DNA of 64,000 nucleotides, taken from assembly GCA_947650285.1 (NCBI GenBank), contig CANTFL010001475.1, positions 124,001-188,000 on the forward strand, written 5' to 3'. Made by a program: the position numbers and the translations under genes. The stretch is from Hyaloperonospora brassicae. Lineage: Eukaryota > Oomycota > Peronosporomycetes > Peronosporales > Peronosporaceae. The notes below the pieces were generated by a model, which worked only from the letters and a program-made list of their open reading frames with translations, ran no database searches and was not told where the DNA came from. The first letter of the stretch is position 1. Each line of letters opens with the position of its first letter. Below, piece after piece: positions 6,929 through 61,403 of this stretch.

Positions 6929-7140
6929 CTTGACAGAACCCTCGGGTACGTGTCACAGCATGATCATCGATCAGTTCACACGCCCACCCATCTACCAGTA
7001 AAGAACGCTGATAGGTTAGTAGGTGGACCCTGCACACGTTGTTAATAGTCAACGACGTAGGTGCAATCCAGCCGCTGGAAAATCGTGGTAAATTAACATT
7101 ATTTCTCATACGCGGGGTTTCCACGCCATTTCATAAAGTA

Positions 7141-7539
7141 TTAAGCGTTACGAATACGTCGCTTTAGAAGTCTCTCCGTACGGAACAGGTGATTTCCTTG
7201 CTTATCAAGCAAGGCGGCGGCATCTCGTGTCGATCCTGCGTCAAGCGATTGACGACTTGACTCACAAGGTGCAACGACTTTGCGAGCGTGTGGAACGCTT
7301 GGAATCGGTGAAGAATCGTCTACGAACCATAAACCAGGGTCTACCTCGCGTAGGGGGCAGCTGTATGGCCTGATGCGGATGCAGCAATGCGTGGCAATGG
7401 CTTCATCGTCGGCGCAAGCGTTCGCAAGGTTTACAAGCGAAGGAAGGATCCCAATGCGTAATGCTAAGCAACGCAAAACATGGGGTCGGTGTGAATTTGC
7501 TTGGAAGGTTACGCGTACATGGAAAGCCTTATTGTTCAA
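7141..7539 (-). pseudogene. Chromodomain-region remnant of R1
   Basis: Frame of 132 codons without an ATG. Its end (ALLDKQGNHLFRTERLLKRR) lines up with the segment just before the chromodomain in A (LLDEQGNRQFHVERLLKRH). The start resembles the post-integrase HPVFYVGLLKL segment. The chromodomain core itself is lost downstream. The opposite strand of the same DNA carries the coiled-coil remnant of the antisense frame. Confidence 0.55.
7182..7373 (+). pseudogene. Antisense-frame coiled-coil remnant in R1
   Basis: Reading on the strand opposite to R1, an open stretch encodes ILRQAIDDLTHKVQRLCERV and continues with heptad-like Leu/Val spacing (ERLESVKNRLRT) to a TGA at 7371-7373. Position and pattern match the C-terminal coiled coil of the antisense frame of B and C. 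The nucleotide sequence is greatly diverged from B, so the keeping of an open frame and heptads is notable. See also 51931-52107, where the same segment is intact. Confidence 0.55.
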
Positions 7540-7559
7540 GATCGTAAAGGATTAAATGA

Positions 7560-12353: not shown

Positions 12354-12923
12354 CGTAGCGGAGCTACTACAGGTGCTTTCCAGAGGATGGCTTAAGCTCA
12401 GAGAGCCACTTATTTTCTTGAACTAGCAGTGAAATATTGAGGCACCATGTTCAGTGAATCAGGACTCAGAGAATTAACAAGCTCTGAGAAAGACGACTCC
12501 TGAATTAACTTGTTTTCTGGAACAACGACTCAACTAGTCTACGAGCTCAAGGAAATACAATCTTAGGACTAAGAGATCAAATTACATCACATTGCTCGTA
12601 CTCCTAGTTTAAGGGTCGTACGATTCGTAGAATCGAGTAGCAACTGGTGCCCAAGAGTACACGCCGTAATAACACTTCTAGACTCTTATGATTATAGGGC
12701 GCCTGGACAAGGCACGAGTGCTTATCGATCAAACTGCGAGCTGCTGTTTGTCTACTTTTGAGAATTGTGACAAAAGGTTATACGTGTACTTCAATATAAG
12801 TTTGTACTCCCTACCGGAGTAAAACCTGATACGTTTCTTTCAGGGTGGCCGACGCGCGTGAACCCCCAGCTAACGATTTCAGTACAGAACTTATTGATAA
12901 AGGTTGTACAACACAGCGTTACG
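12354..12923 (-). repeat. Degraded 5' LTR of relict R1
   Basis: On the minus strand it ends GTAGCTCCGCTACG, matching the LTR end of the young family, followed by a diverged primer-binding region (GATAGCACTT). Inside, hairpins such as CGATTC-TAC-GAATCG and the GACTCA/AGCTCTGAG type repeats resemble the young LTR. The far end near 12923 is approximate; the expected TGTAACG reads CGTAACG. Confidence 0.6.
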
Positions 12924-14517: not shown

Positions 14518-14560
14518 CTTGCTTGCGAAGGTGTTGTGCTTTGTGCTGTTGTCGTACGTC

Positions 14561-14578
14561 CGAAGTTGGGGAATGAAC
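14561..14578 (-). promoter_or_regulatory. Inr/FPR-like core promoter of SP-A copy 1
   Basis: On the minus strand the sequence reads GTTCATTCCCCAACTTCG, fitting the oomycete initiator consensus TCATTYYNCAWTTT closely. It lies 44-61 bp before the ATG, leaving a short A/C-rich leader (CAACAACAGCACAAAGC). The same block stands before SP-A copy 2 and both SP-B genes, together with a preceding CTCGGACC[C/G]AGCAAGTG element. Confidence 0.65.
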
Positions 14579-14691
14579 TCACTTGCTGGGTCCGAGAGCT
14601 ACAAGCGCACCCGATCTCGCTTCGTCGTCAAACTCTCTCTCGTGACGATTACGTCGTAAGAACCGTTAGAAGCTCAGTTCTGATTGCTCAT

Positions 14692-14706
14692 CCAACCAAG
14701 TAGAGG
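14692..14706. repeat. Target-site duplication, left copy (LINE insertion)
   Basis: CCAACCAAGTAGAGG occurs here and again at 15208-15222, flanking the LINE fragment. The partner arm has this 15-mer only once (16373-16387, reverse complement), which is the empty site. Confidence 0.8.
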
Positions 14707-15207
14707 AGGAGGAGTTTCATGATCATCTATTGACATATTTAATGTGGACAAGAGGTCTGAAAAATCCTGAGCCAGGATATGAGCGCCGGTCGCGGCAGCG
14801 GATCGTGGCTGACACCCGCGTAGGGCGGGTGTCCACGGGGCTCTTGAAGCAGAAGTTCAAGACAGGCATGAAGTCGGGCCCCTCGTACGGCCGTAGCCGC
14901 GGCTCGATGCTCGCGTATTGCAATTGCCCGTAGCTGGCGAACACCGCGTGTCCAGTACATTTGGACACTTGCGGATGGAGTAGTCACGGCTCCTCGAAAG
15001 ACCGCCGAGTTCCGCTCGGTCCACAAATGTTCTTGGCAGATGGAGCTTAATATGAACCAGATCCGTTCGAATTCTGTTGCTGCGGCGTCAGAGTCATCTT
15101 GAAAACGGCTTTGCAACCGCAAACTCAGCTGACGTGGAATGGGCGGGGCTTTGCGATTGGCGCAGTGCTGAAAGAAGGTGGAAAGAACTGCGTTCGTCGC
15201 ACCCCTT
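14707..15207 (-). mobile_element. 5'-truncated LINE insertion
   Basis: 501 bp flanked by 15-bp direct repeats and absent from the other palindrome arm. On the minus strand it encodes the C-terminal end of a LINE ORF2: a block around ICQEHLWTERNSAVFRG, typical of the region after the reverse transcriptase, ending with a stop near 14739 and a short tail. Truncation at the 5' side and a long target duplication are usual for target-primed reverse transcription. I do not see a long poly(A) tail. The open frame runs into flanking DNA up to 15362, but that part is not LINE. Confidence 0.75.
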
Positions 15208-15222
15208 CCAACCAAGTAGAGG
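15208..15222. repeat. Target-site duplication, right copy (LINE insertion)
   Basis: Second copy of the 15-mer CCAACCAAGTAGAGG; see 14692-14706. Confidence 0.8.
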
Positions 15223-15725
15223 CGAACGGTGTGTTTCGTACGAAAGAAAATGTCACCGGAATGATTGACTGCAACAGTAGTCGCAAATGCACAGCGCAAA
15301 AGGTGGTCATCGCATGTGTTTGGTGGGCATCGGCTGTCGGCTCGGATAGTTGCAACGGACAACAGATTACTACGAAAAAGTGGGATGCATATGGTGCGTC
15401 AAGCATTCTTATGCTGTTTTTGTGTCGATCTGACTGGTCGAGCTGAACCAGACACCGCGTCTTATCGGATGTGCAGCAGCAGATACGTACTTCTCAGAAA
15501 CGCATGTCCGTCATGCCCTGTTTTCCACGCGGTACTGCAGCTGTAGACGTCCTAGATAGACATTGCATGTGGAACTGACAGCTAAGCCGTCTTCCCGGAG
15601 CCACATGCGACTTCTACACGGGTGGTCAGCATGACGCCAAATAGCAGATGCACGGCGCCAGCCGAAGTACAGTCTTCTCTATGCGACTTGAATAACGGTC
15701 ACAATGCTGGTCGACAGATGATCGC
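15223..15725. other. Inner left arm of palindrome 1, no gene recognised
   Basis: DNA upstream of SP-A copy 1, paired with 15870-16372. The outer 320 bp are nearly identical to the partner; the inner 180 bp are clearly diverged, by eye about three matches in four. Frames on the plus strand (for example 15265-15546) have no recognisable domain. Confidence 0.6.
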
Positions 15726-15869
15726 GTGAGCCTATGCTCGGGTATTCCCTCAAGAATCACAAAACAGAAAACACACAAGGGAAGTAACCTAGGCGTTCAA
15801 AGTTCCACGGAACATGCCATCACATCTTTTTACCTCACCCAATCACGAAGGAAAATAAGATCAGGAGCT
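15726..15869. other. Central spacer of palindrome 1
   Basis: About 145 bp at the symmetry centre (15797) that do not pair with each other. A/T-rich stretches (CAAAACAGAAAACACAC) and no gene. I see no element or tRNA here. Confidence 0.6.
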
Positions 15870-16372
15870 CATGCGATGTGTCGACCAGCATCGTGACCGT
15901 TGCTGGGTCACATCATGCATTGCGCTCCGCCCGCGCCGTGCATCTGCTGTTGGACACTATGTTGACCACGCGTGCAGAAGTCGCATGTAGCTCCGGGAAG
16001 ACAGCTTAGGACGGTCGCAGTTCCACATGCACCGTCCAACTACGACGCCTACAGCTGCAGTACCGCGTGGAAAACAGGGCATGACGGACATGCGTTTCTG
16101 AGAAGTACGTATCTGCTGCTGCACATCCGATAAGACTCGGTGTCTGGTACAGCTCGACCAGTCAGATCGACACAAAAACAGCATAAGAATGCTTGACGCA
16201 CCATATGCATCCCACTTTTTCGTAGTAATCTGTTGTCCGTTGCAACTATCCGAGCCGACAGCCGATGCCCACCAAACACATGCGATGACCACCTTTTGCG
16301 CTGTGCATTTGCGACTACTGTTGCAGTCAATCATTCCGGTGACATTTTCTTTCGTACGAAACACACCGTTCG

Positions 16373-16387
16373 CCTCTACTTGGTTGG
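16373..16387. other. Empty target site of the LINE insertion
   Basis: Single copy of the 15-mer (CCTCTACTTGGTTGG on this strand) at the position matching the duplicated site in the left arm. It shows the arm as it was before the LINE inserted. Confidence 0.8.
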
Positions 16388-16500
16388 ATGAGCAATCAGA
16401 ACTGAGCTTCTAACGGTTCTTACGACGTAATCGTCAAGAGAGAGAGTATGACGACGAAGCGAGATCGGGTGCGCTTGTAGCTCTCGGACCCAGCAAGTGA

Positions 16501-16518
16501 GTTCATTCCCCAACTTCG
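16501..16518 (+). promoter_or_regulatory. Inr/FPR-like core promoter of SP-A copy 2
   Basis: GTTCATTCCCCAACTTCG, 43-60 bp before the ATG at 16562; same element as at SP-A copy 1 and the SP-B genes. Confidence 0.65.
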
Positions 16519-16561
16519 GACGTACGACAACAGCACAAAGCACAACACCTTCGCAAGCAAG

Positions 16562-16921
16562 ATGAAGCTCAGTATCATGATCGGCGCGCTGAGCGTGGCT
16601 GCCTTGGCGTTTGTGAGCAATACCGTGGATGCGTCGACGGAAGCCGTGCAGACGTCCCATCACGTGCGCAGAGTCTACAGAGATGATTATCGTGACGGTA
16701 ACAGCCGTGACGGCAACAGGGGCGCTTATGCCAACCGTTCTCATGGTAGAAAGAAGCGTGGCTACGGAGATGACGACAAAGATAGCCGCGATCACAACGG
16801 TGATGTCTATCGCCAGAAAGCTGGTGGCGAAAAGCAGCGTCGCTCCCGAGATGTCGACACGGATAGCCGCAACTATGACGGGGGTAACTACGGCAAGCAG
16901 CCGAGCGTCTACCGCAATTAG
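16562..16921 (+). CDS. SP-A copy 2: secreted Arg/Asp-rich disordered protein
   Basis: Encodes a 119-aa protein identical to SP-A copy 1, in the opposite orientation across the palindrome centre, so the two genes diverge from about 2 kb apart. The signal peptide covers residues 1-25 and the mature chain is Cys-free and rich in Arg, Asp and Gly. Identity of the proteins despite small differences in nearby DNA fits recent duplication or continuing gene conversion. The promoter block at 16501 is unchanged. Function unknown; see copy 1 for motifs. Confidence 0.75.
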   Translation: MKLSIMIGALSVAALAFVSNTVDASTEAVQTSHHVRRVYRDDYRDGNSRDGNRGAYANRSHGRKKRGYGDDDKDSRDHNGDVYRQKAGGEKQRRSRDVDTDSRNYDGGNYGKQPSVYRN

Positions 16922-18155
16922 CGTGTCGGGCGACACGAGGCGGTGGAACCTAGCGGCTATAATGGTGTCGGCGTCGTGGCTACCTTTGTACACGTCCGTG
17001 TACACCTGTAGCTGCAGTTTCTCGGGATCGTAAATGCTTTACGCGGTAGAGACGATGAGAGTGTCAGCGTGCCGTCTGGCGTCGGCGTTTACCACAAATG
17101 GGCCTTAGGACTGCTTGATGCTATCGACGCGCACCTCGTCACCGCTCAGTATAGTGATGCCTCGTATCTGACGAGCGCGGCGTGCTTGCCATTTGAATGT
17201 TGTTGTAAAAGTACACACACATACACTTTTCGTTCAACGCAGATGGTAACCAGTGGGAAATCAAACACATTTGCAAACGGTCTTGTCTATCTTTTCGTTT
17301 GTGTAGTCGATACGTATGAAACCTTGTTTGCAGCTCGTTCCGACACTTCAAAGCGTGGGTTACCTGTGAATGCGGAAAAGCAAAAGCGTCTCTCGTGTCA
17401 ACGCAGTATGATGCGGATAGAGGAATAGCGCATATCCTGGTGTCGCCGTGCACAAAAGTGTCTACCGCGCCAGGTTTCACTGCATACGACGATATAGTAT
17501 GCGACGACTGTGTCGTCATTCACTGTCTAAGCAAAAAAGCATACGGCATGGACCTCGGGCTCGTCCGACGCATCCAACGTACACTCCGGTGCTGTCCGAA
17601 TGCCACAAAGTATGCAGATGTTCGGTGCGCAAGGTCTGATATGACCCGCTTGAGCGTCGCACCAGCGTGCGTTCAGCGCATGTAGAACTCCATCAGGTTG
17701 TGGTCTGATCATGCTGCTGCTGAAGTCGAAGGAAGATAAGTCAGATGGCGTACGGACTCAGTCCTTCACAAACCCTTGAGTGATACGGCATGACTTAGCT
17801 GTTAGAACTGATCATGCTGTTCTTTCCTTTGGCTTTTAGCACTTTATAACCTCTGCAAACGCTTGGCTGCGGTGCGCGGCTGTGATTTTTGCTTTTGTGA
17901 AAGGCCCAGCTGCTTTACGTAATTGCACGCAGTGGATAATGAAGGGACAAGCGACGGACACACATCAGCATTACTGGTTGCACACGCCCTAAAACTGCAG
18001 GACCCCCTTTTCCACATGAACCTTCTAGAATGCAATTGTAAATTGTCAACGCAACTTGCACACAGCTACAAAACAAACATGTGCAAGCCAAGTTGATACT
18101 TGCGAGTGGATCTGTACCGGCGATACACTTTGGCGGTGCAACCACGGTAGAGGTA

Positions 18156-18725
18156 CGTAACGCTGTGTTGTACAACCTTTATCAATAAGTTCTGTACTGA
18201 AATCGTTAGCTGGGGGTTCACGCGCGTCGGCCACCCTGAAAGAAACGTATCAGGTTTTACTCCGGTAGGGAGTACAAACTTATATTGAAGTACACGTATA
18301 ACCTTTTGTCACAATTCTCAAAAGTAGACAAACAGCAGCTCGCAGTTTGATCGATAAGCACTCGTGCCTTGTCCAGGCGCCCTATAATCATAAGAGTCTA
18401 GAAGTGTTATTACGGCGTGTACTCTTGGGCACCAGTTGCTACTCGATTCTACGAATCGTACGACCCTTAAACTAGGAGTACGAGCAATGTGATGTAATTT
18501 GATCTCTTAGTCCTAAGATTGTATTTCCTTGAGCTCGTAGACTAGTTGAGTCGTTGTTCCAGAAAACAAGTTAATTCAGGAGTCGTCTTTCTCAGAGCTT
18601 GTTAATTCTCTGAGTCCTGATTCACTGAACATGGTGCCTCAATATTTCACTGCTAGTTCAAGAAAATAAGTGGCTCTCTGAGCATAAGCCATCCTCTGGA
18701 AAGCACCTGTAGTAGCTCCGCTACG
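18156..18725 (+). repeat. Degraded 5' LTR of relict R2
   Basis: Mirror image of the R1 LTR. The 3' end (GTAGCTCCGCTACG) is clear; the 5' end near 18156 is approximate. Confidence 0.6.
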
Positions 18726-18865
18726 TTTGATAGCACTTTGGTCTATTTACTACAGATTCTGTTAAGTCCAATCCTCTTCGAGGATGGAGCAAGTTATCCC
18801 CTTCTCTCTGAGGTCCAAAAGGTCGCGCTTACTAAGCTGACCGATTCTTCGGGTTCAGAGTATGT

Positions 18866-19189
18866 TTGACTTTCTTGTATCGCAAGGCTAGGACGTGTTA
18901 TACACACTTCTGGAAGAAGATTCGCCAAATGAGTCTTTCCTGTTTGCATAGGTCTACGGCCAAATGGCGTCGGAATATGTTGACACGATTTGTTTATGTA
19001 TTGGACGAAGAAGCTAAGCCTTGTCAACCCAAGCTGAGCGTCAAAACTTACTACGGGAGGATGGGGGGATATTACTCTCTGGACTCGGGAGGTAGAGGTT
19101 TTTATGAAATCCAGCATGCTCTGTTTAAATTATCAGCATGTATCGATGGCTGTATCTCCGCTCAACGGAAGATAGAGAATAACTCCTAA
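18866..19189 (+). pseudogene. gag: Gag remnant of R2
   Basis: A 107-codon frame containing TRFVYVLDEEAKPCQPKL, SVKTYYG and, further on, FYEIQHALFKLSACIDGC. These align in order with RYVAMPPEEAKPRPLRV, DIKHYSG and LAIFKLDRKA of the young Gag. The mirrored frame is at 11890-12213. It is a short central piece of Gag with indels, not a functional gene. Confidence 0.6.
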
Positions 19190-20884
19190 CGTGCGGCACG
19201 TCAGTTGATGCTGCATTTTGCCCACACGGAAATCGCTGAAGCGGTAGATTCTACTCGTATAATTGCCGACCAACCAGGCACATCGCGTGCGAGTACGCTT
19301 CTTATCTACCTTTAACGGCAAGAGTAAGCTAACGGCTATGTACAAGTGTTGAGAGCACGTATGGATGCTATGCAGATTGATCCTTGCTTCGAGGTGGTCA
19401 GTGCGACCGTGTTGATGGAAGGTCTTGGTACTGGCGTTTTCAGGACGAATGACTTTCGGGCTCACCCTTCACCTCTGTAGAGGCTGTGCAAATAGCACTG
19501 AACGCTAAATTCAACCTTAAGTCATCTAGACTTGATTGGATTGGACGTAGAACATGTTCTCCAATCACAATCGGTGCACATGCGGCTTGGACATTGAGCC
19601 TATGGTCCATCGCAATCATTAAGGCAAAGATGAAGCTGATCTGCAAGCTGCTGAGCTACAACGTGACATTCACCGACGTTATACATGAAGGTAGCATTAA
19701 TGCCTGCTTGCGAGTTGTCCGTTCCGCAAACAGTGCCAGGCTTCTATGAGTCTAGTACTTGCCTCAAACTAGAACTATGGTACGGCGCGAGGGAAACGAC
19801 ATGTCTTTGAAAGCGCGGAGCGTCCTATCGAGAAATATTATGTCATGTTGTATATTATGTTGGTGGAGGTGAGAAAGTCTTATTCACTCATAGCTTTGTA
19901 CTCAATAACGTAAACCTAGTTCGCAAGCCAGGCTTGCTTGTCATGAAAGCGACTGTTAGCAAGTTTACAATGATTCTTGTACGGTTTCAATAGATTCTGG
20001 AGCAGCAGAAGACTATGCTCGACGCTAATCCCTGGATCAGAGTCAGTAGTATGCTGAGTCGCTGGAAGTGCAAAGTAGCGAATCTGGCACTGTTTGACTG
20101 GCAACGAGACCGCGTGTAACGTGCTAACGGTTTGACAAACAAGTCACGAAGTTCTTAAAGCTTGGCGTCGTGGAATGTGGATGAGACCTTGACTTCGGCA
20201 TGATATATTTGAAATATCCTAGGCATAGCATGGATGAAACGACATAAGTCATGGATTGATAAGAGGTGTGGGTTGTTTAGGTATAACGTGCACTGTCTCT
20301 ATTGGGTCTCTGGCGAGTCATAATTCCCTTTGTCTGAACACTTTGGCGATATGGACGCGATCTTCTGCCCAATTTGTTCAGCGTGCTAACCATTGGATTC
20401 TTAGAGATAATTGAATCCAAAGATATCAACCATATGAGCTCAGAGCGAAGATTTTGCTGATAGCGATACGGCATGCAATCCGTTGCTGGATGCCTGGGGA
20501 GCCCAATTTTCTCGACTGATGTGAGATGTAAGGTATTGCGAAATACCCGACAGCGTCGTCAAATAGACGATGCAAGGTGCAGACAGTCTTTTCCATGACA
20601 GTGTTATGACAGAAATACACTGTATGGTCTTTTCAATGGCGTGATGGCAAGGTGATTGACATTGTTGCCTTAGGGATATTTATCTTTGTATTCTATTACA
20701 TTGGTTGACAAAATAGAGAATGATGCGTTTGGTCAGGCTTAAAGGACGCTGATTTATTCGCATTCGTGGCCATTCGACCTAACATTGAGGTAAGCATATC
20801 CTCGATATAGAAATAGTCGTTCCCTGAGGATACGAAGTTGGCATTAAGTGCCAGTAGTGGATCTTAGAATCCTGAAAAAACTTA

Positions 20885-21257
20885 TTGGGTATGGATTATC
20901 ACGTGATAAAGGGATCACGTGACTCTTGTTGGCACATCCCAATGTCCTTCATACCTCTCGATAGAGACGTGCGCCATCGAGTTGATCTAGTTCCGGGAAC
21001 AACATACTGCGTTATACGGCAGTGGCAGTTGCAAAAGGAGCAGTGTGACGTCATCGACGACTTAACTTGAATTTTTGCGTTACACGGCAGATAATGTGCA
21101 TGATTGTAGGTCTCGCCGTTATACACTTTCCTTCTATGTCAGAAATTTGAATAGCAAGTGCCACCTTGTTCATGTTGATAAGAATCAAAATGCTGCCGTC
21201 ATTCTGACTCCGACCTCTATTCCTAGAAATTGTGCTTCGCAACGAAATGGTCGATAG
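20885..21257 (+). pseudogene. RT remnant of R2
   Basis: Two adjoining frames. The first has PLDRDVRHRVDLVPGTTYCV and EQCDVIDD, matching the RT start of element A. The second has YVRNLNSKCHLVHV and TPTSIPRNCASQRN, matching FCVKKPNGKWRIVHAY and IPRKHVLQNN. The stretch corresponds to the RT fingers only. It is identical in parts to 54852-55224 but differs from the palindrome 1 partner at 9823-10235. Confidence 0.65.
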
Positions 21258-23539
21258 TACCTTTTATAGTGCGCTCGACTTAGTTGATGGCTATTTCCAC
21301 TTGCTCATGTGAGCGAGTGATGTTCCGATGACAGCGGTGAGCACTGCTAGTGGTATACTCTGGGGTGTCATTTGATGCACCAATTTTCATTGGGTTCCCC
21401 GGCTACATTCAATCGTCTCGTGACGCAATATTTCAGACCTCTCCGAGGCTATTCGCAAACGTAATCAGATGTCATCGTCGTATTTATTAGTGCAGAGAAC
21501 GGTCGGACAAATATGGACAGCAATATTGACCATTTACGATTTGTGATTGAGTGCGTGCGCACCAATAAGTAGTGTGCTGCTGTACCAACGTACATCTTAC
21601 CTGGTGAATAAAATCATTCACTACGGTGAATGATTGGGCAGCAAGAGTGGGTGCATATAGTTCATAGCCAAGGTCATTTTTGTCTGGCCGGTTCCGAAGA
21701 AATAAATGAACGTACGTAATTGGCTTCATCTTGACAACCACATCCACAAGTATAGTGCGAATTACGCATGAATGGCTCCGTCATTATTTCTCACCTAACA
21801 TATTTTCTGAAAAAAGAAGTGGAGAGGCGCTAAAATTACATACATGACAATGTTTGCTAGAAGTAAAGGTGAGCCTCCTCCAGTTCTGTTTGGGATCTGC
21901 CGGAACCAGAGCAGCCATTCCATGTCTCCTCTGGTGATTCTAACTTTGTCATTGGCTGTGCTCTGATCCAAGCCTTCATCGTGGCCATGTGCGCGTTTTC
22001 GAGCATGGATCTTCCCGCCAAAAGCTGCTTTCAAGAACTAACCAGTTCATGACAACGATTGATTTGCAAAGTATGCGCTAGTCATCTTCAGAGTTTATCG
22101 ATTTGGCTTGTAGCTATTTTATACGTACATGCGTCATTGCATACTGCGACTCAGACTCCCCATCTCGTTCGGAGAATGGCTCGTTGGTTGTTGTTCTTTG
22201 CCGAATACAGCATTGAAGGTGAAGTATGAGTCAGATAGGCAAACATATTTGATCGGTCGCTACCTCGCAGGCCATCTACGAGCTTGATCATGATACAAAC
22301 TGGTCGTCGTTCATCACGGTCTTAGTTCGTGCGGCTTATGCACTCGATGGCCATTGTACAACTCGTCTACGTGCTCTTGGGAGGGAGAACGTTGTAGATT
22401 TAGACATACAATTGTCGTCATGTGTTTTCGTGCGAGGCTACATCAATCTTTCATCCGTAAAAAAGAACTGATGTGCTACTGCAGATGTTAATATTATCCC
22501 TCGTATCGTCGTTTCTGATGATGAGTAATTACATTTTCGAAGTCTATATACGGACAATGATGCTACACCGAGTGGTCATCTTGGTTGTGAGAAGACCTAT
22601 GGCTTGGAACTCTAGCTTTATTGGTTGGTCAAACGCTAAATATGGGTGAGCATATGTATGCGTACGCATGAAAGATGTCAATGGGTCAAATCCGCAGCTG
22701 ATGCGGCTGTGCCCCCTGCAAATTTTGTCAGTAGCCACAGGTTTCAAGGAGCTAAGTAAGATGGATTTTGCGTTTCAATTGGCAAACGGTTTGGATGGAA
22801 ACACATGTATTGTGGTTTTTGTCAACCGTCTGAGAAAATAGATCACTTATCGGCTATGCATTTCTCAATAATTGACGGAGGTACAGCAGAGGCGTTCGTC
22901 GATAGCGTGTTTCGTCAGCGCGGTATATCAGTGACGATTATCGCGAATAGATATCCTCGGTTCACCCGTCAGATTTAAAGTCAATCTTGAAGGTTCTGGG
23001 GTTCTGATTGGACATGTTTACGGCGGATCATGTCTATATCGATGGTCAAATAGAGCAGATGAATCGCGTGATTTTGGCATGTTACTCAGTATTTAGTGAA
23101 GTAGGCTTAGTCCTTGGATCTCCATGCTCCCTATCGTTGTATTAGCGTTGTATATCGCTGGTTATACCTCTACGAGCTTTACTCCGTTCTGTATGAGCGG
23201 TCTGACCCCGACACGCGTTCAGTTAAATATACCACTTCATGGTTCTTAGCTTAGCGGTGGAGAGATGGCCGATTGGCTAGCTGATCCTATCATTCTTATC
23301 ACTCTTTGGGTCTAGTTTTATACGTTTCTCGCAGCGCGATTCAATGTCTTACTACATGTGCGTCATGCAATGTCTGAAAGCCAAGATGAAGAAAAAGAAC
23401 CAACTACTATCAAATCTTGTATCAAACGTTACAAGGTCGAAGACCAAGTATTTCTCAATGCTAAACATCTACCTACAAATGCGGTGTTCACTGTATTGAC
23501 AACAATCCTGCGTCCCCGCTTCATTTAATCCTTTACGAT

Positions 23540-23917
23540 CTTGAACAATAAGGCTTTCCATGTACGCGTAACCTTCCAAGCAAATTCACACCGACCCCAT
23601 GTTTTGCGTTGCTTAGCATTACGCATTGGGATCCTTCCTTCGCTTGTGAACCTTGCGAACGCTTGCGCCGACGATGACGTCCTTGCCACGTATTGCTGCA
23701 TCCGCATCAGGCCATACAGCTGCCCCCTACGCGAGGTAGACCCTGGTTCATGGTTCGTAGACGATTCTACACCAATTCCAAGCGTTCCACACGCTCGCGA
23801 AGTCGTCAATCGCTTGACGCAGGATCGACACGAGATGCCGCCGCCTTGCTTGATAAGCAAGGAAATCACCTGTTCCGTACGGAGAGACTTCTAAAGCGAC
23901 GTATTCGTAACGCTTAA
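23540..23917 (+). pseudogene. Chromodomain-region remnant of R2
   Basis: Same region as 7141-7539. The end LLDKQGNHLFRTERLLKRR is kept at 23850-23917. A 22-bp deletion between ACGACTT repeats breaks both this frame and the antisense coiled coil, which R1 and R3 keep open. Confidence 0.5.
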
Positions 23918-24640
23918 TACTTTATGAAATGGCGGGGAAACCCCGAGTATGAGAAATCGTGTTAATTTACCACGATTTTCCAGCGGCTGGATTGCATCTA
24001 CGTCGTTGACTTTTAACACCGTATGCAGGGTCCACCTACTAACCTATCAGCGTTCTTTACTGGTAGATGGGTGGGCGTGTGAACTGATCGATGGTCATGC
24101 CGTGACACGTACCCGAGGGTTCGGTCAAGGTACCACCACTTGTGTGTGGTATGTTGGTAGTTGATACCTCGTCTAGGACCAGCACAACGATTGCAATCGG
24201 CCTTCCGCTTTTCTCTCGGCATAACGGGTTTGCGTTCTGGACGAACTTCAGCTCTGTTGCAGCTATCTATAACATTCTAATCTTCTACAATTGACGTACG
24301 TGCTATACCAATTGGATGAGCTGCACTTAGTTGTCGCTGTCTGCTTTTCCCGGGTACAGGATGATAGTAATGGTCTCATTGAGTATACCAAGGTACTGTG
24401 TGACTGGTAATACGATCTAATAGGTATGGGAATACCAAAAGAATCCTTAGGATCAGATATAGATCTCCTAGAGCTCGACGTGCAGATATTTTGACATTCT
24501 TCGTTGCCTCTTGTTTACCTTTCCACTCCGTCAATGATTGGCGAGGGGCTTGTCAAATTGTGTCATCGATTCTGGAGAGCTGATCGATATGTCATTGAGT
24601 AGCCTCCACAATACAACGTCATCGAGTGTAAGCGATTCTA

Positions 24641-24930
24641 TTACATTTGCAAAGCCTCTTGTTGCTGCTGCTCACCGTGTCGGTTAATGAGCCTGTTTGG
24701 ATCAGGACATCGGGCATTACTCAGCTGTGCGATCGAATATTCAGCATCAAGTTGTGCGAACGGATTCAATGTGTGAGTGGGTTCATCTATATGGACTGGT
24801 GATATTGGCTTCAAAACACCCAGATCGATATCACTCTCGTATTTTACCAACTCGGCTTCAAAATATTTCTTGGAGGTCTTTCACCCGTCCCCTGATGGCT
24901 TCATTAAGCTTTGTATCGGATGGCAACCAT
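24641..24930 (-). pseudogene. Antisense-frame N-terminal remnant in R2
   Basis: On the strand opposite to R2, between chromodomain region and 3' LTR, an ATG at 24930 (context ATCATGG) lies where the young elements start their antisense frame (ACCATGG). After a frameshift an open stretch has KYESDIDLG, SPVHIDEPTHTLNPFA and GEQQQQEAL. These align in order with DYGSDTDDLG, SPVQEATTYTAPNPFA and LDEQQKLAI of element B. Protein-level similarity at this distance supports past coding. The mirrored copy is at 50862-51151. Confidence 0.6.
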
Positions 24931-30120: not shown

Positions 30121-30652
30121 TGTAACGGGGTTACACGTCGACTGGTAGTCGAGAAAAGGTGTGGTTCACACCAGGGATGGGATCCCCTTTGAATTGATAT
30201 TCGAACACAGTATCGATTGTTGATGACTGATGTCGGTCAACCATAGATTACGAGATCTTTTAAGAGGTTTATTTAGAACATTAGCGAGTAGGTTGATCAC
30301 GTTGTTCTAAGATATTGTTTTAGGTTAAAAGAAGAAATAAAGTTCAGTTCCCATTTTGATCTGATAGACACGTGCCTCTCCGAGGCGTCTTGTGATCGTT
30401 AAGGAGGTAGCAACGCCTTGTTAAGGCAGCTACTCCTTGTGCACTCTGTACGTTGGATTGTTTGAATCGTTTGGCCCCCCTGGAACAAGTACCGTAAGAT
30501 CTATAAGTTTGTTGACTGTCTGAGTCGGGTTCTTTGAACCAAACCTTAGTTCTCTGAGCTGTTGACTCTTTAAGTCGGGTTCGTAGAACCAAAGTTGCTC
30601 GTTGAGCGTTAGAGTTTACTTCTGACTTAAGGAGCTGTGTAGCTCCGCTACA
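30121..30652 (+). repeat. 5' LTR of element A
   Basis: 532 bp, TGTAACGG...CGCTACA. Hairpins with 3-nt loops occur at 30121-30135, 30138-30152, 30158-30172, 30174-30186, 30374-30386, 30415-30427, 30528-30540, 30578-30590 and 30638-30652. AATAAA at 30336-30341 is a possible polyadenylation signal. Confidence 0.93.
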
Positions 30653-35842: not shown

Positions 35843-36290
35843 GTGCGCACACACCCTGTGTTCTACGTGGGCTTGCTTAAGCTGTATCGGGATCCGTCCC
35901 ACGTGAACTTGGAGGCGCTTGCGTCGCATACGTTGGCCTTGACATCGGTTGCTGAATCCGTATCAGAAGGTCAAGCTGAGCCTTTATCCGGGCTTGGCTC
36001 AACTCCAATGCCTGGACACGGGATTGCATCGCGTCAAGCGCACTCTGGGTCTTACCCAATGTCTCACGGAGACCACTCAGCTCGAGAAGCACCTTCTCAT
36101 GCTCCTCCTTCGGTATACCAACCAACTCTGACGCTTCTCGATGAACAAGGGAACCGCCAGTTCCATGTGGAGCGACTCCTGAAACGACATCGTCGTCACG
36201 TCCAATACCAGTATCTGGTGAAGTGGCGAGGGTACTAGGAGTCGGAGAGCTCGTGGGATTTTGAGATACCCCTTCGGCAGGATTGCTCAT
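35843..36290 (+). pseudogene. Chromodomain region of element A
   Basis: HPVFYVGLLKLYRDP, a long spacer, then the chromodomain RLLKRHRRHVQYQYLVKWRGY. TAG at 36236-36238 follows directly, and beyond it the frame continues ESESSWDFE, the normal chromodomain end. The aromatic residues expected to bind methyl-lysine are largely present. The TAG occurs in B and C at the same codon. On the other strand that triplet is read through by the antisense frame. Confidence 0.82.
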
Positions 36291-37161
36291 AAGACGTTGA
36301 TGTTTATGAACATCGTGGCAAGTGTCTTCGATCGACCGAGGACGCTTCTCACCAATAGTGGTGGGAGGCAGCGGTTTGCTCCGCGCCTTAGGGTCGAAAC
36401 CTGTGGCTACCGGCGTAGCCGCAGCGTAGCGCGTTCGATTGCGCAGTTGACCTCTGGCCTTGAGTTTGGCGTATTCGTACCGAACTTTCGTTCTAGACGA
36501 ACATCGTCCACATTGGCACTTGCCCTCAGCGATGACACACTGCTGAGATGCCGCGTGCGGTGTACCCAATGGCTGAACTGATTGTCCTCCTCTTCAGGCA
36601 ACTCGCCGGCAAACAACAAGATGGGTACGCCTTTAATCGGTCGAACTAAAATACCTCGATCCAAGCTTTCAAGGTGTGGCTTGTATTGACCTTGGGTGGT
36701 CAAGAAATGTTTGATACCTCTCCGGTAGGAACTGGCGCAAGGCGATGTCTTCTGGCGACGTAGCATCTAAGCCAATGGCCTTTGTTGCAAGGCTACGGCC
36801 TTCCGTTTGACTGAGACGTTGATCCACGTCAGCTGTTGAAATTACGTAACCACTCCGGTTTCGAATAGCCGTCTGGGTATGAGTGCGACGTAGAGTACGC
36901 TCCTCTCGCTGGAAACACAACTGTTGCTCATCAAGCGCGTTGGTGATGAGGCGTTCACCTGCCTTTGTTGCATGATGCTGCGCAATGGCTTCGCCACGCT
37001 CGGCAAATGGGTTTGGTGCAGTATGAAGCGTTGCCTCTTGTACTGGTGATTAGACACTGTCCTTTCTTACCGAGGACATCGGTATCGCTACCATAACCCA
37101 CCTCCACATTGATGCCGAGGTAGGACGAGAGAGTCGAGAACTCATTGGGTGGCGATACCAT
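35877..37161 (-). pseudogene. Antisense frame of element A, several frameshifts
   Basis: Reads against the element, from ATG at 37161 (ACCATGG) near the 3' LTR to TAA at 35877, overlapping the chromodomain. The frame changes near 37085, 36690 and 36495. Recognisable parts match B and C: NEFSTLSSYLGINVE, PILLFAGELPEEEDN, DVRLERKF, YAKLKARGQL, IGEKRPRS and a C-terminal coiled coil (KVLLELSGLRETLGKTQSAL). Its frameshifts lie at different places from the one in B and C, so an intact ancestor is likely. Function unknown. Confidence 0.7.
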
Positions 37162-37269: not shown

Positions 37270-37802
37270 TGTAATGGGGTTACACGTCGACTGGTAGTCG
37301 AGAATAGGTGTGGTGCTCACAAGGGATGAGGCTCCCTTTAAATTGATATTCGAACACAGTATCGATTGTTGAAGACTGGTGTCTGTCAACCATAGATTAC
37401 GAGATCTTTTGAGAGGTTTATTTAGAACATTAGCGAGTAGGTTGATCACGTTGTTCTAAGATATTGTTTTAGGTTAAAAGAAGAAATAAAGTTCAGTTCC
37501 CATTTTGATCTGATAGACACGTGCCTCTCCGAGGCGTCTTGTGATCGTTAAGGAGGTAGCAACGCCTTGTTAAGGCAGCTACTCCTTGTGCACTCTGTAC
37601 GTTGGATTGTTTGAATCGTTTGGCCCCCCCTGGAACAAGTACCGTAAGATCTATAAGTTTGTTGACTGTCTGAGTCGGGTTCTTTGAACCAAACCTTAGT
37701 TCTTTGAGCTGTTGACTCTTTAAGTCGGGTTCGTAGAACCAAAGTTGCTCGTTGAGCGTTAGAGTTTACTTCTGACTGAAGAAGCTGTGAAGCTCCGCTA
37801 TA
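37270..37802 (+). repeat. 3' LTR of element A
   Basis: 533 bp, TGTAATGG...CGCTATA; the terminal CA is TA. Only modestly different from the 5' LTR. The start hairpin keeps its stem apart from one changed pair (TGTAATGGGGTTACA). AATAAA at 37485-37490. Confidence 0.9.
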
Positions 37803-41806: not shown

Positions 41807-42338
41807 TTTAGCGGAGCTACACAGCTCCTTAAGTCAGAATGAAGACTAAACGCTCAATAAGCAAATTTGGTTTAAAAATTAGACTCAAAGAGTCAACAGC
41901 TCAGAGAGCTAAGGTTTGGTTCAAAGAACCCGACTCAGACAGTCAACAAGCTCAGAGAGCTTACGGTCCCTGTTCCAGGGGGGGCCAAACGATTCAAACA
42001 ATCCAATGCACAGAGCGCACAAGGAGTAGCTGCCTTAACAAGGCTTTGCTACCTCCTTAACGATCACAAGACGCCTCGAAGAGGCACGTGTCTATCAGAT
42101 CAAAATGGGAACTGAACTTTATTTCTTCTTTGAACCTAAAACAATATCTTAGAACAACGTGATCAACCTACTCGCTAATGTTCTAAATAAACCTCTCAAA
42201 AGATCTCGTAATCTATGGTTGACAGACACCAGTCTTCAACAATCGATACTGTGTTCGAATATCAATTCAAAGGGGATCCCATCCCTGGTGTGAACCACAC
42301 CTATTGTCGACTACCAGTCGACGTGTAACCCCATTACA
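41807..42338 (-). repeat. 3' LTR of element B
   Basis: 532 bp. In the first 60 bp from 41815 (GTCAGAATGAAGACTAAACG and on) it differs at more than ten positions from the B 5' LTR, and it resembles the A LTRs more. A polypurine tract, seen as CCCTCCCCCACC, adjoins at 42339-42350. Confidence 0.92.
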
Positions 42339-42446
42339 CCCTCCCCCACCAGACTGACGTTATCGCGAAACGTCGATCGAATTCTTTCCTCGAAGAGGAC
42401 TGTGTGTGTGCGCTTCAACCTTACGGTTGGCAAAACACGAAACACC

Positions 42447-43749
42447 ATGGTATCGCCACCCAATGAGTTCTCGACTCTCTCGTCCTACCTCGGCATCAAT
42501 GTGGAGGCGGATTATGGCAGCGATACCGATGACCTCGGTGAAGAAAGGACAGTGTATAACTCACCAGTGCAAGAGGCAACGACTTATACTGCACCAAACC
42601 CATTTGCCAGGCGCGGCGAAGCCAACGCGCCATCGGCGCCGCATCAAACACACATCGTGGGTGATGTCATCATAACCAATCCTCTCGACGAGCAACAAAA
42701 GTTGGCTATACAACGAGAGGAGAGCGCTCAGCGCCGTATGCAGCTTGCTGCAACCCTTGAGGGTCGTCGTGGCTATCTTTTCACCCTACTCAATGTGGAA
42801 GAGCATATATGCGAAATGACAGGTCGTTCTTTGGCAACGTGGGCCATTGGCGCTGAGCCAACATCTTCTGATGAGGTGGCGAGTCGACAGGTTTTTTCTC
42901 GAGAGGTACCTCCAACCTCACTTGGCGACTCAAAGTCAATACAAGTTGCGACTTGACACGCAAGCACGGGGTGCACCGGTTCAGTCGATGAAGGATATAC
43001 CCATCCTCCTATTTGCAGGCGAATCTCAGGAGGAAGAAGACAACGCTTTTGTTTGCTGGGTGCATCGGAAACTACACCTCAGCAGCGTGTTAGCTCTCAG
43101 AGCAAGTGCCGATGTGGCAGATGTTCGTCTAGAACGAAAGTTTCGGTATGATTACGCCAAGCTTAAGGCCAGAGGCCAGTTGCGAACTCACACACGCTAT
43201 GCTCCAGCTGTGCCGGTTGATGTGGGTCTTGGTCAAGCGGTGCCCAACTACCCACCTGCCTCCACCACTATTGGTGAGAAGCGCTCTCGGTCGAGGGATG
43301 ACCCATGCCACGATGTTCAAAAACATCAACGTCTTATGAGCAATCCTGCCGAAGGGGTATCTCAAACTCCCACGAGCTCTCCGACTCCTAGTACCCTCGC
43401 CACTTCACCAGATACTGGTATTGACCCTGAAGACGATGTCGTTTCAGGAGTTGCTCCACATGGAACTGGAGGTTCCCTTGCTCAACGAGCGGCGTTGGAG
43501 GTGGTTGGTATACCGAAGGAGGAGCATGAGAAGGTGCTTCTCGAGCTGAGTGGTCTCCGTGAGACATTGGGTAAGACCCAGAGTGCGCTTGACGCGATGC
43601 AAGCCCGTGTACAGGCATTGGAGTTGAGCCAAGCCCGGATGAAGGCTCAGCTTGACCTTCTGATACGGATTCAGCAACCGATGTCAAGGCCAACGTATGC
43701 GACGCAAGCGCCTCCAAGTTCACGTGGGACGGATCCCGATACAGCTTAA
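42447..43749 (+). pseudogene. Antisense frame of element B with C-terminal coiled coil
   Basis: Runs against the element between 3' LTR and integrase and overlaps the chromodomain completely. ATG at 42447 in strong context (ACCATGG). The first frame runs to a stop at 42954 (SYLGINVEADYGSDTDDLG, TAPNPFARR, LDEQQKLAI). At a run of six T (42892-42897) the frame must change by +1 to continue in the second part to 43749 (PILLFAGESQEEEDN, DVRLERKFRYDYAKLKARG, IGEKRSRSRDD). Residues about 222-276 of the second part form a coiled coil (KVLLELSGLRETLGKTQSAL and on), followed by a Pro/Ser-rich tail. Product about 430 aa if joined. It is not similar to any family I can name. A weak Gag-like look (FAG...EEED...W) is noted only. 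Confidence 0.7.
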
Positions 43750-43783
43750 GCAAGCCCACGTAGAACACAGGGTGTGTGCGCAC
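43388..43783 (-). pseudogene. Chromodomain region of element B
   Basis: As in A: HPVFYVGLLKL, spacer, then QYQYLVKWRGY and TAG. Bounded upstream by the shared TAA at 43784-43786. Fully covered by the antisense frame, whose coiled coil lies opposite the spacer. Confidence 0.82.
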
Positions 43784-44689
43784 TTATCGCGGAAGGTTGA
43801 GCGTATACGCAAGTCCCTTCTTGGCGACGACCGTGAATGGACCAATGAAGCGCGGACGCAACTTTGTCTTGCAGACGGCAGACACTACATTTGTAGGTAA
43901 GTTTTTAGCATTGAGTAGAACTTGGTCTCCGACCTCATAACATCTAATACAAACTCTGCCTTTAGCATCATATTGTTCATTCTGATTGTCTTGGCTATCA
44001 GCTAGTGCGTCACGCACATGTCGTAAGACATTCAAGCGCGTTGCGAGAAACTCGCTTACCTGTTTTTGAACAGTAGCAGGGCTGATATCAGAAAACTGAT
44101 CGGCAACTCTTCTCCCACCAAGCCCTGAACCACGCAGTGGTAGCGTTAACGGAACGCGAGGGTATGTGAGACCATGCACATAAAACGGTTTGTAGCTGGT
44201 GGAAGCATGCACAGCGTTATTCAACACAAACTCAACGACAGGGAGCATCGAACTCCAACGCTTAGATGTTTCATCTCAAACACTGCGCAAGATGTCACCG
44301 ATAACGCGATTCACTCGCTCGGTTTGACCATCAGTCTGCGAATGATCCGCTGTGGACATGTCCAAACGTGTGCCGAGTACCTTGAAGATGGATTTCCAAA
44401 ACTTCCCAGTGAAGCGAGGATCTCTATCAGAGACAATTGCCAACGGCAAACCGTGTTGTCGAAACACGCGGTCGATAAACACCGTAGCTGTACCCTCATC
44501 ATCAATGGTATCCGGCACCGCCGCTAAATGAGCCATCTTGCTCAAACGGTCAACAAAGACCACAATATCCGTATTGCCATGAGCATCTTTCGGTAAACCG
44601 AACAGGAAATCCATACGGATTGACTCCCAACACCCCTTGGGTATAGGCAAACTAGCCAGCGGCGCGGACGCGTGAGGTGAGGATTTCAC
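43784..44689 (-). pseudogene. Integrase core and C-terminal region of element B
   Basis: Core 44276-44689 with MDFLFGLP, SDRDPRF and DGQTERVN; C-terminal part 43784-44248 with RPRFIGPF. The shared TGA lies at 44276-44278. Catalytic residues are all present. Confidence 0.88.
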
Positions 44690-44692
44690 CCG

Positions 44693-45502
44693 TTAACACG
44701 TTTCACACGTACGCACATATGTGATCACCCATTTGTATAGTTTGGGCCACCAATAACATTGGCTCACAGAGCTATTGGTCTTTTCACGACCGAGGTGGCC
44801 GCTCAACGCAGTATCATGTGCCCCATAGAGGATCCGATACTTCAACTCCTCATCATGAGGGACAACGATGCGAGGGGTATCCTCCACATCCGTTCTATAG
44901 CACAACAGGCCTTGATCGATGGAATATCTATGTAGCCTCGCACGTAATCGTGCCGACAATTCTATGTCTGAGTATTTAAATTTCTCGCTCCCTAGAGCAC
45001 GTATCAGAGCTACACAGGGTTCATCCTTGGCATATTCCGTACGGATTAGGTCAGTGACCGATGATGACAGAGTCATAACATGAGCAAGCTTATAGTCAGG
45101 CCTGAGTGACAACGCATCAGCCAAAGCATTCTGCTTGCTTGAATTATAATTCACCTCGAAGTTGTACTCGGCAAAGAAGGAAAACCAACGAGCCATTCTC
45201 TGAGATAGGTGAGGCGACTGGGTCGCAGTGCTTAGTTACGCATGATCTATATAGATCACAAACGGCTTCGAGCCAAGAAGATGAACTCTGAACTTGACGA
45301 GAGCATACTTCATTGCAAGTAGCTCTTTGTCATGAACAGGATAGTTCTTTTCTGCAGCCTTCATCTGTCGGGACTCAAACGCAATGAAGCGTTCCCGTCC
45401 ATCAGAATCTGTCTGTAACAGGGCGCTGTCTGTGGAAAAGTCAGATGCGTCAGACGACACTGAAAGGCCGATCAGGATCATGCAAAGCCAAGATTGGCGC
45501 AC
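44693..45502 (-). pseudogene. RNase H end and integrase zinc finger of element B
   Basis: 45236-45502 holds the RNase H piece (SDASDFSTDSALLQ, HDKELLAMKYAL). 44693-45196 holds QNALADALS and the HHCC finger (AHDTALSGH, CETC), ending at TAA 44693-44695, shared with A but CAA in C. Confidence 0.85.
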
Positions 45503-48966: not shown

Positions 48967-49498
48967 TGTAGCGGAGCTACACAGCTCCTTAATTCAGAGG
49001 AAGAAATAACGATCAATGAGCAACTTAAGGTTAAGAAAATTCGACTCAAACAGTCAACAGCTCAGAGAGCTAAGGTTTGGTTCAAAGAACCTGAATCAAA
49101 GAGTCAACAAGCTCAGAGAGCTTACGGTCCCTGTTCCAGGGGGACCAAACGGTTCAAACAATCAAACGCACAGAGCGCACAAGGAGTAGCTGCCTTAACA
49201 AGGCGTTGCTACCTCCTTAACGATCACAAGACGCCTCGGAGAGGCACGTGTCTATCGGATCAAAATGGGAACTGAACTTTATTTCTTCTTTCAACCTAAA
49301 ACAATATCTTAGAACAACGTGATCAACCTACTCGCTAATGTTCTGAATAAACCTCTCAAAAGATCTCGTAATCAATGGTTGACATACATCAGTCTTCAAC
49401 AATTGATACTGTCTTCTAATATTAATTTAAAGGGGATCCCATCCATGGTGTGCACAACACCTATTGTCGACTACCAGTCGACGTGTAACCCCGTAAAA
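48967..49498 (-). repeat. 5' LTR of element B
   Basis: 532 bp, almost identical to the G0 LTR in its variable part (TTCAGAGGAAGAAATAACGA and on). The outer end reads CCGTAAAA on the plus strand instead of CCGTTACA. Confidence 0.92.
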
Positions 49499-50861: not shown

Positions 50862-51151
50862 ATGGTTGCCATCCGATACAAAGCTTAATGAAGCCATCAG
50901 GGGACGGGTGAAAGACCTCCAAGAAATATTTTGAAGCCGAGTTGGTAAAATACGAGAGTGATATCGATCTGGGTGTTTTGAAGCCAATATCACCAGTCCA
51001 TATAGATGAACCCACTCACACATTGAATCCGTTCGCACAACTTGATGCTGAATATTCGATCGCACAGCTGAGTAATGCCCGATGTCCTGATCCAAACAGG
51101 CTCATTAACCGACACGGTGAGCAGCAGCAACAAGAGGCTTTGCAAATGTAA
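50862..51151 (+). pseudogene. Antisense-frame N-terminal remnant in R3
   Basis: Mirror of 24641-24930: ATGG at 50862, then, after a frameshift, KYESDIDLG, SPVHIDEPTHTLNPFA and GEQQQQEAL, matching the young antisense frame in order and spacing. Confidence 0.6.
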
Positions 51152-51930
51152 TAGAATCGCTTACACTCGATGACGTTGTATTGTGAAGGCTACTCAATGA
51201 CATATCGATCAGCTCTCCAGAATCGATGACACAATTTGACAAGCCCCTCGCCAATCATTGACGGAGTGGAAAGGTAAACAAGAGGCAACGAAGAATGTCA
51301 AAATATCTGCACGTCGAGCTCTAGGAGATCTATATCTGATCCTAAGGATTCTTTTGGTATTCCCATACCTATTAGATCGTATTACCAGTCACACAGTACC
51401 TTGGTATACTCAATGAGACCATTACTATCATCCTGTACCCGGGAAAAGCAGACAGCGACAACTAAGTGCAGCTCATCCAATTGGTATAGCACGTACGTCA
51501 ATTGTAGAAGATTAGAATGTTATAGATAGCTGCAACAGAGCTGAAGTTCGTCCAGAACGCAAACCCGTTATGCCGAGAGAAAAGCGGAAGGCCGATTGCA
51601 ATCGTTGTGCTGGTCCTAGACGAGGTATCAACTACCAACATACCACACACAAGTGGTGGTACCTTGACCGAACCCTCGGGTACGTGTCACGGCATGACCA
51701 TCGATCAGTTCACACGCCCACCCATCTACCAGTAAAGAACGCTGATAGGTTAGTAGGTGGACCCTGCATACGGTGTTAAAAGTCAACGACGTAGATGCAA
51801 TCCAGCCGCTGGAAAATCGTGGTAAATTAACACGATTTCTCATACTCGGGGTTTCCCCGCCATTTCATAAAGTATTAAGCGTTACGAATACGTCGCTTTA
51901 GAAGTCTCTCCGTACGGAACAGGTGATTTC

Positions 51931-52107
51931 CTTGCTTATCAAGCAAGGCGGCGGCATCTCGTGTCGATCCTGCGTCAAGCGATTGACGACTTGACTCACG
52001 AGGTGCAACGACTTCGCGAGCGTGTGGAACGCTTGGAATCGGTGAAGAATCGTCTACGAACCATGAACCAGGGTCTACCTCGCGTAGGGGGCAGCTGTAT
52101 GGCCTGA
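51931..52107 (+). pseudogene. Antisense-frame coiled-coil remnant in R3
   Basis: An open stretch ending at TGA 52105-52107. It reads HLVSILRQAIDDLTHEVQRL followed by RERVERLESVKNRLRTMNQ, with a/d-type Leu, Ile and Val spacing over about six heptads. It occupies the same place as the coiled coil of elements B and C (HEKVLLELSGLRETLGKTQS and on) though few residues are identical. The opposite strand keeps the chromodomain-region remnant. Confidence 0.6.
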
Positions 52108-52287
52108 TGCGGATGCAGCAATACGTGGCAAGGACGTCATCGTCGGCGCAAGCGTTCGCAAGGTTTACAAGCGAAGGAAGAATCCCAATGCGTCTTGTTA
52201 ATCAACGCTAAACACGGGGTGGGTGTGAATTTGCTCGGAAGGTTACGCGTACATGGAAAGCCTTATTGATCAAGACCGCAAATGATT

Positions 52288-60055: not shown

Positions 60056-61403
60056 GTGTGTGTGCGCTTCAACCTTACGGTTGGCAAAACACGAAACACC
60101 ATAGTGTCGCCACCCCATGAGTTCTCGACTCTCTCGTCCTACCTCGGCATCAATGTGGAGGCGGATTATGGCATCGATACCGATGACCTCGGTGAAGAAA
60201 GGACAGTGTATAACTCACCAGTGCAAGAGGCAACGACTTATACTGCACCAAACCCATTTGCCAGGCGCGGCGAAGCCAACGCGCCATCGGCGCCGCATCA
60301 AACACACATCGTGGGTGATGTCATCATAACCAATCCTCTCGACGAGCAACAAAAGTTGGCTATACAACGAGAGGAGAGCGCTCAGCGCCGTATGCAGCTT
60401 GCTGCAACCCTTGAGGGTCGTCGTGGCTATCTTTTCACCCTACTCAATGTGGAAGAGCATATATGCGAAATGACAGGTCGTTCTTTGGCAACGTGGGCCA
60501 TTGGCGCTGAGCCAACATCTTCTGATGAGGTGGCGAGTCGACAGGTTTTTTCTCGAGAGGTACCTCCAACCTCACTTGGCGACTCAAAGTCAATACAAGT
60601 TGCGACTTGACACGCAAGCACGGGGTGCACCGGTTCAGTCGATGAAGGATATACCCATCCTCCTATTTGCAGGCGAATCTCAGGAGGAAGAAGACAACGC
60701 TTTTGTTTGCTGGGTGCATCGGAAACTACACCTCAGCAGCGTGTTAGCTCTCAGAGCAAGTGCCGATGTGGCAGATGTTCGTCTAGAACGAAAGTTTCGG
60801 TATGATTACGCCAAGCTTAAGGCCAGAGGCCAGTTGCGAACTCACACACGCTATGCTCCAGCTGTGCCGGTTGATGTGGGTCTTGGTCAAGCGGTGCCCA
60901 ACTACCCACCTGCCTCCACCACTATTGGTGAGAAGCGCTCTCGGTCGAGGGATGACCCATGCCACGATGTTCAAAAACATCAACGTCTTATGAGCAATCC
61001 TGCCGAAGGGGTATCTCAAACTCCCACGAGCTCTCCGACTCCTAGTACCCTCGCCACTTCACCAGATACTGGTATTGACCCTGAAGACGTTGTCGTTTCA
61101 GGAGTCGCTCCACATGGAACTGGAGGTTCCCTTGCTCAACGAGCGGCGTCGGACGTGGTCGGTATACCGAAGGAGGAGCATGAGAAGGTGCTTCTCGAGC
61201 TGAGTGGTCTCCGTGAGACATTGGGTAAGACCCAGAGTGCGCTTGACGCGATGCAAGCCCGTGTACAGGCATTGGAGTTGAGCCAAGCCCGGATGAAGGC
61301 TCAGCTTGACCTTCTGATACGGATTCAGCAACCGATGTCAAGGCCAACGTATGCGACGCAAGCGCCTCCAAGTTCACGTGGGACGGATCCCGATACAGCT
61401 TAA
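60056..61403 (+). pseudogene. Antisense frame of element C, start codon lost
   Basis: Nearly identical to the B frame, including the +1 frame change at the T run (60545-60551). The initiator ATG of B is ATA here (60101-60103). The second part is open to 61403 and keeps the coiled coil. Differences from B include Asp to Val and a Leu-Glu to Ser-Asp change in the 61090-61155 region. Confidence 0.7.

Follow-up and report, generated by a model that had tools for sequence, protein, structure and literature searches.

The question raised by this locus is whether a long reading frame opposite the gag-pol genes of a Ty3/gypsy retrotransposon, here called ORF-X, is a gene or a by-product of the strand that it faces. 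The window (the whole 64-kb stretch of Hyaloperonospora brassicae DNA analyzed) contains three related LTR elements, A, B and C, each with pol on one strand and ORF-X on the other, starting near the 3′ LTR and ending within pol. The initial annotation had described a frame from an ATG beside the 3′ LTR to a stop inside pol, and the case for it proved stronger than was claimed. In copy B the ATG lies at 42447, ∼95 bp from the polypurine tract adjoining the 3′ LTR, and the stop codon ends at 43749. The features concerned are as follows.

42447..43749, + strand: ORF-X copy B, with a single frame break near codon 150
60101..61403, + strand: ORF-X copy C, 99% identical to B, with the same break and a changed ATG
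35877..37161, − strand: ORF-X copy A, with several breaks, unlike that of B; its ends are close in sequence to B and C and its middle is divergent
41809..42338, − strand: 3′ LTR of element B, aligned to 42332 with the final 6 bases assigned by eye
42339..42352, − strand: purine-rich tract adjoining the 3′ LTR of element B, assigned by eye
48969..49492, − strand: 5′ LTR of element B, from LTR alignment

The LTRs of element B (41809-42338 and 48969-49492) are 92.4% identical over 526 columns and those of element A (30121-30650 and 37270-37800) are 96.6% identical over 532 columns. Element C extends past the end of the window. ORF-X was intact in none of the three copies (0/3), and in copy B it is split into ORFs 42402-42956 and 42847-43749. 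Copies B and C are 17.65 kb apart; their common frame break and 99% identity point to a common broken ancestor. Copy A was broken elsewhere, in agreement with the breaks annotated initially. Copy A is also a mosaic, with both ends at ∼87% DNA identity to the type of L004, an open copy, and a middle that could be matched at the protein level only, which suggests possible recombination between subfamilies. That all three window copies are broken would suit a reading of the antisense frame as a chance shadow, cast by pol and an unconstrained 3′ region.

The position of the frame relative to pol was defined from reading frames and Pfam matches.

43268..45247, − strand: pol end of element B (integrase, SH3, linker, chromodomain), broken, from the frame and Pfam
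43268..43749, both strands: ORF-X/pol overlap, ∼482 bp
43313..43465, − strand: chromodomain, placed via pol residues 595-645

The Pfam chromodomain is situated inside the overlap, so the initial statement that the frame covers the whole chromodomain stands, with the length of the overlap corrected from 390 bp to ∼482 bp (43268-43749). The overlap comprises the last ∼160 pol codons here and ∼228 residues in a pair of proteins from Phytophthora cactorum. The near end of the L004 element contains H2C2, SH3_Tf2-1 and Chromo, with an rve match below the cut-off, and at the far end gag in sense orientation (Ty3_capsid, Retrotrans_gag), RVT_1 and a single RNase H are spread over several distinct frames. 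By domain content, the order of RT, RNase H, integrase and then chromodomain is that of a chromovirus-type Ty3/gypsy element. Chronos, a Ty3/gypsy element of oomycetes (Peronosporales), is likewise described as having a chromodomain at the end of pol, together with a second RNase H of archaeal type (PMC5348765). The present element was not assigned to Chronos, as this second RNase H was not found in the L071 pieces or in P0103, a 1128-aa pol relative, which gave only RT_RNaseH and RT_RNaseH_2. The main text of the paper on Chronos uses none of the words antisense, opposite and overlapping (PMC5348765).

Further copies were sought in 100.6 Mb of genome sequence on 898 contigs. A DNA search matched 40 of 40 scored candidates (the 40 best of 734). 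With the open L004 frame as protein query, 97 places were scored, the best of 1622 candidates, and 32 of these had no in-frame stop in the matched stretch by hand count, a fraction that applies to the best-scoring places and is not a genome-wide rate. A relative at 51% identity, used as a second query, gave 95 scored places, the best of 1358 candidates. Across both protein searches the ORF-X family occupies more than 100 places in this one genome. Copies open across 433 codons are present outside the window, which supports the earlier proposal of an antisense protein gene. A second ORF-X subfamily was observed with many open frames of ∼437 residues (for example C12:45355-46647 and C855:197929-199221).

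The open frame was then compared with chance expectation using L004, a copy picked for being open, in both tests. Resampling of synonymous pol codons in the same phase gave an expectation of 3.9 antisense stops in the overlap versus 0 observed (P = 0.008), while the remainder of the L004 pol piece had 24 antisense stops versus 24.9 expected. The 273 open codons outside pol had a P value of ∼3e-5 from base composition alone. Among 52 copies, 34 of 41 indel runs were not multiples of three, and most sampled copies are therefore decaying. Such frame-breaking indels are a further point for a chance shadow; the 32 open copies among the 97 scored count against it.

Relatives were identified in other species. 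Searching with the open L004 protein (∼8000 candidates scored) gave at least 99 related proteins, with Peronospora matthiolae, P. destructor, P. effusa, Hyaloperonospora arabidopsidis, H. brassicae and Phytophthora ramorum, cactorum, idaei and citrophthora as named hosts. When ten distant members were aligned and used as the query (again ∼8000 candidates scored), the search gave at least 40 proteins and added Phytophthora infestans, sojae, fragariaefolia, palmivora, rubi and megakarya. ORF-X relatives are known in this way from Peronospora, Hyaloperonospora and ten named Phytophthora species. No match of either protein search carried a precomputed Pfam domain. The ORF-X at L004:1501-2799 is 98% identical to the Peronospora destructor protein P0002. 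Residues invariant outside pol in 16 aligned proteins include Y23, N78, D81, W204, R209, L228, R230 and K238. Conservation of the pol-free residues 1-273 across genera contradicts the chance-shadow reading.

Whether the overlap itself is common to these species was assessed from protein sequences as joint encodability, meaning how far a single DNA could specify an antisense protein on one strand and a pol protein on the other; every offset and each phase was tried. For the true L004 pair 158/158 residues were jointly encodable and the next-best placement gave 107/317; a reversed-pol control reached 135/433 at best. The best 45 of 252 cross pairs all peaked in the phase of the window (45/45), as did the best 30 of 100 further pairs. 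Individual pairs gave 154/155 (P0010/P0103), 156/158 (both P0055/P0106 and P0001/P0100), 130/140 (P0046/P0109 of P. effusa) and 215/228 residues against a background of 17-20% (P0095/P0119 of Phytophthora cactorum). Scores were lower where a pol of the same species was lacking (Phytophthora infestans 144/212, P. sojae 116/197, P. ramorum 112/199). In P0119 the chromodomain, residues 622-670, is inside the overlap, which reaches the C terminus at 695. As joint encodability falls in one phase and the chromodomain of P0119 lies within the overlap, the overlap is taken to be common to Phytophthora and the downy mildews. P0107, a pol entered under the name Albugo candida, shares 65% identity with the pol end of L004, above the Phytophthora ones among the matches listed, and is jointly encodable with the ORF-X relative P0037 at 111/158 residues; contamination or horizontal transfer are possible origins.

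Within the window, the family profile also located remnants of an ORF-X relative opposite a pol family that is more distant.

50912..52208, + strand: remnants of an ORF-X relative opposite the distant-family chromodomain (51740-51946)
23528..24880, − strand: second copy of these remnants
7137..7552, + strand: third copy, overlap part only

The distant pol family has 39-54% amino acid identity to the L004 pol (pieces of at least 58 residues). The remnant matches were individually weak (best E 3.5e-7, most 1e-4 to 0.6) and in the correct order, and the strand opposite the remnants gave no profile match below E 1. Since the three loci belong to a single family and two lie in the arms of an inverted duplication, they count as one observation. 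This large inverted duplication spans 6924-24134 of the window, with arms that are 100% complementary at 10148-14706/16373-20931, 99% at 7274-10151/20929-23806 and 96% at 6924-7258/23800-24134. It is either a real palindrome or an assembly artefact.

Selection was analyzed from substitutions counted by codon position in 53 distinct copies. Outside pol, antisense positions 1/2/3 had 90/97/86 singletons and 106/95/89 changes at sites common to 2-4 copies. Both distributions are even, as expected of decaying copies, and even singletons would also suit a chance shadow. Sites common to at least 5 copies were distributed 35/25/61 (p 7e-4), a third-position bias outside pol that counts against a chance shadow. 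The median dN/dS outside pol was 0.46 in 127 pairs (18 copies being stop-free there), and the 12 pairs with the highest dS had values of 0.33-0.43. Codon-position bias and dN/dS were among the checks named in the initial annotation, and both favored its antisense gene; an even spread over antisense positions, which would have spoken against it, was seen outside pol for singletons and for sites common to 2-4 copies but not for the more widely shared ones. Nonsynonymous changes outside pol were too few in 6/6 pairs by a permutation test; the tested pairs and copies are non-independent, and the permutation pairs have copies in common. Identity between copy A and L004 over codons 62-210 was 0.51/0.67/0.37 by position, partly through a broken stretch of A. 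ORF-X outside pol is under purifying selection. A chance shadow is thereby left as a very improbable reading, and ORF-X is, on sequence grounds, very probably a coding gene.

Inside the overlap the pattern was less uniform. Shared sites fell 17/13/18 on the antisense positions and did not differ from singletons of the same region (p 0.18). The pol-only region served as a yardstick, with 9/5/36 at sense positions (p 8e-9); for sense positions 2:3 the overlap had 18:13 versus 5:36 in pol-only sequence (p 8e-5). It is conceivable, if rather unlikely, that codons 1-273 alone are selected, the stretch facing the chromodomain being a tail that stays open passively, through the amino acids of pol. 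Such a tail would fit the permutation test, in which the nonsynonymous deficit in the overlap was significant in just 1/6 pairs, the better conservation of the chromodomain region in sense (0.60-0.96) than in antisense (0.51-0.85; L004 with seven others), and the disorder predicted for residues 249-352. It does not fit the lack of antisense stops in the overlap, the shift at sense positions 2 and 3, the confident prediction of a coiled-coil helix within the overlap or the region of coil and linker, where both frames are conserved about equally (eight antisense/sense pairs). Selection on the antisense frame within the overlap as well is the likelier reading.

The protein was modelled with AlphaFold2 from 53 sequences (mean pLDDT 64.5, pTM 0.37). 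A helical domain at residues 74-248 and a long helix at 357-409 were predicted with confidence; nearly all of 1-73, and 249-352, had pLDDT < 50. The helical domain modelled alone had a pLDDT of 82. Predicted features map to copy B as follows.

42666..43191, + strand: predicted helical domain, residues 74-248 (AlphaFold2)
43279..43335, + strand: NLS-like motif, residues 278-296 (sequence pattern)
43516..43674, + strand: predicted coiled-coil helix, residues 357-409, opposite the pol linker (AlphaFold2)

Net charge is −11 for residues 1-73, +8 for the helical domain and −3 for the disordered stretch that follows. Of the layout annotated initially, the acidic N terminus and the predicted C-terminal coiled coil were retained, and the middle is not simply basic. 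The best register of the long helix has 72% hydrophobic a/d positions. The NLS-like motif is present in 11 of 14 proteins checked, by a pattern picked after sight of the sequences. The low-confidence stretch 249-352 covers the strand opposite the chromodomain, and the coil helix faces the low-complexity linker that joins SH3 to the chromodomain in pol. One strand would thus be structured where the other is flexible, and a division of labour between the strands may be inferred from the models. No Pfam family was matched by L004 at E 1, no gag family was found in the family search of the 53 members, and no significant fold match of any kind was obtained.

Antisense genes on the 3′ side are known from retroviruses, as HBZ of HTLV and ASP of HIV-1. 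HBZ has an acidic tail, a basic motif and a C-terminal coil, a layout that ORF-X recalls; the likeness is one of layout only. An HBZ-type bZIP factor was rejected, as neither L004 nor any of the 53 members matched bZIP. Passages in the literature place HBZ in the nucleus; in ORF-X there is an NLS-like motif. Among plant Ty3/gypsy elements, Grande gene23, RIRE2 and Retand ORF4/TRP28 are described as antisense ORFs between pol and the 3′ LTR, the Grande antisense protein is reported to be nuclear and the Retand lineage is described as non-chromovirus (PMC7264820, PMC11963269). Like these ORFs as described, ORF-X is antisense to gag-pol, on the 3′ side and kept in many copies. Unlike them, it shares ∼480 bp with pol, in a phase that is conserved, and its element, unlike Retand, has a chromodomain. 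No relation to Retand TRP28 was detected, as PF04195 was not matched by L004 at E 1 or by the 53 members at E 0.1, where neither it nor bZIP was among the 12 families listed. The brtn gene of the fungal element Boty/BcGypsy1 is described as an antisense additional gene (PMC7264820, PMC8365987). It resembles ORF-X, compared by description only, in being such a gene, carried by a Ty3/gypsy element whose host is a filamentous plant pathogen. The initial annotation had named Tat-type plant Ty3 elements as carriers of antisense ORFs; brtn extends their range beyond these (PMC7264820, PMC8365987).

The simplest account is an accessory protein akin in kind to those of the plant antisense ORFs but belonging to a separate family and encoded by a gene that overlaps pol over a long stretch. 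ORF-X probably codes for protein and is an accessory gene in a Ty3/gypsy lineage of Peronosporaceae whose elements bear a chromodomain. An antisense transcript would begin in or near the 3′ LTR, run against gag-pol and be translated into the ORF-X protein, which would enter the nucleus via the basic motif and multimerise via the coiled coil. Contacts of the helical domain and the acidic tail could then regulate transcription, integration or silencing of the element. A nuclear regulatory role is put forward tentatively, because of the motif, the coil and the analogy with known antisense proteins.

The product might instead be a structural or assembly partner of Gag or integrase in the particle. 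The helical domain and coiled coil would suit assembly, and the gene is kept together with gag-pol. The NLS-like motif speaks against this role, as does the absence of a profile relation between ORF-X and the gag of its own element (hhalign probability 0.1%), although a profile does not address binding, which is still compatible. A particle role is considered unlikely. It is less likely still that the antisense RNA, rather than a protein, is what matters, by pairing with gag-pol RNA and feeding small-RNA control. Control of this kind is proposed for antisense ORFs in general in a review (PMC7264820), and small RNAs of P. infestans are described as mapping along Gypsy elements in both orientations (PMC3522703). 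An RNA role alone leaves the conserved amino acids and the third-position bias unexplained; both roles could coexist. A Gag-interacting protein and a controlling RNA were, like a regulatory protein, among the roles proposed in the initial annotation.

The fullest form of the protein-coding reading is more doubtful than the regulatory role itself. ORF-X would be an overprinted antisense gene, held in one fixed phase over the chromodomain in Phytophthora and downy mildews, and would encode a nuclear multimeric regulator of unmatched fold, independent of HBZ and TRP28. Targeting and regulation would be tied to the same bases, with ordered parts facing disordered ones.

To our knowledge, long antisense gene overlaps under selection have rarely been demonstrated. 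Here the same overlap is found in several species and at more than 100 places of one genome, with open and dead copies side by side, so that selection on both strands can be measured. Proteins annotated in oomycetes as unnamed, hypothetical or uncharacterized would gain an identity as products of ORF-X, and the hosts of LTR elements with an antisense accessory gene would include oomycetes besides plants and fungi.
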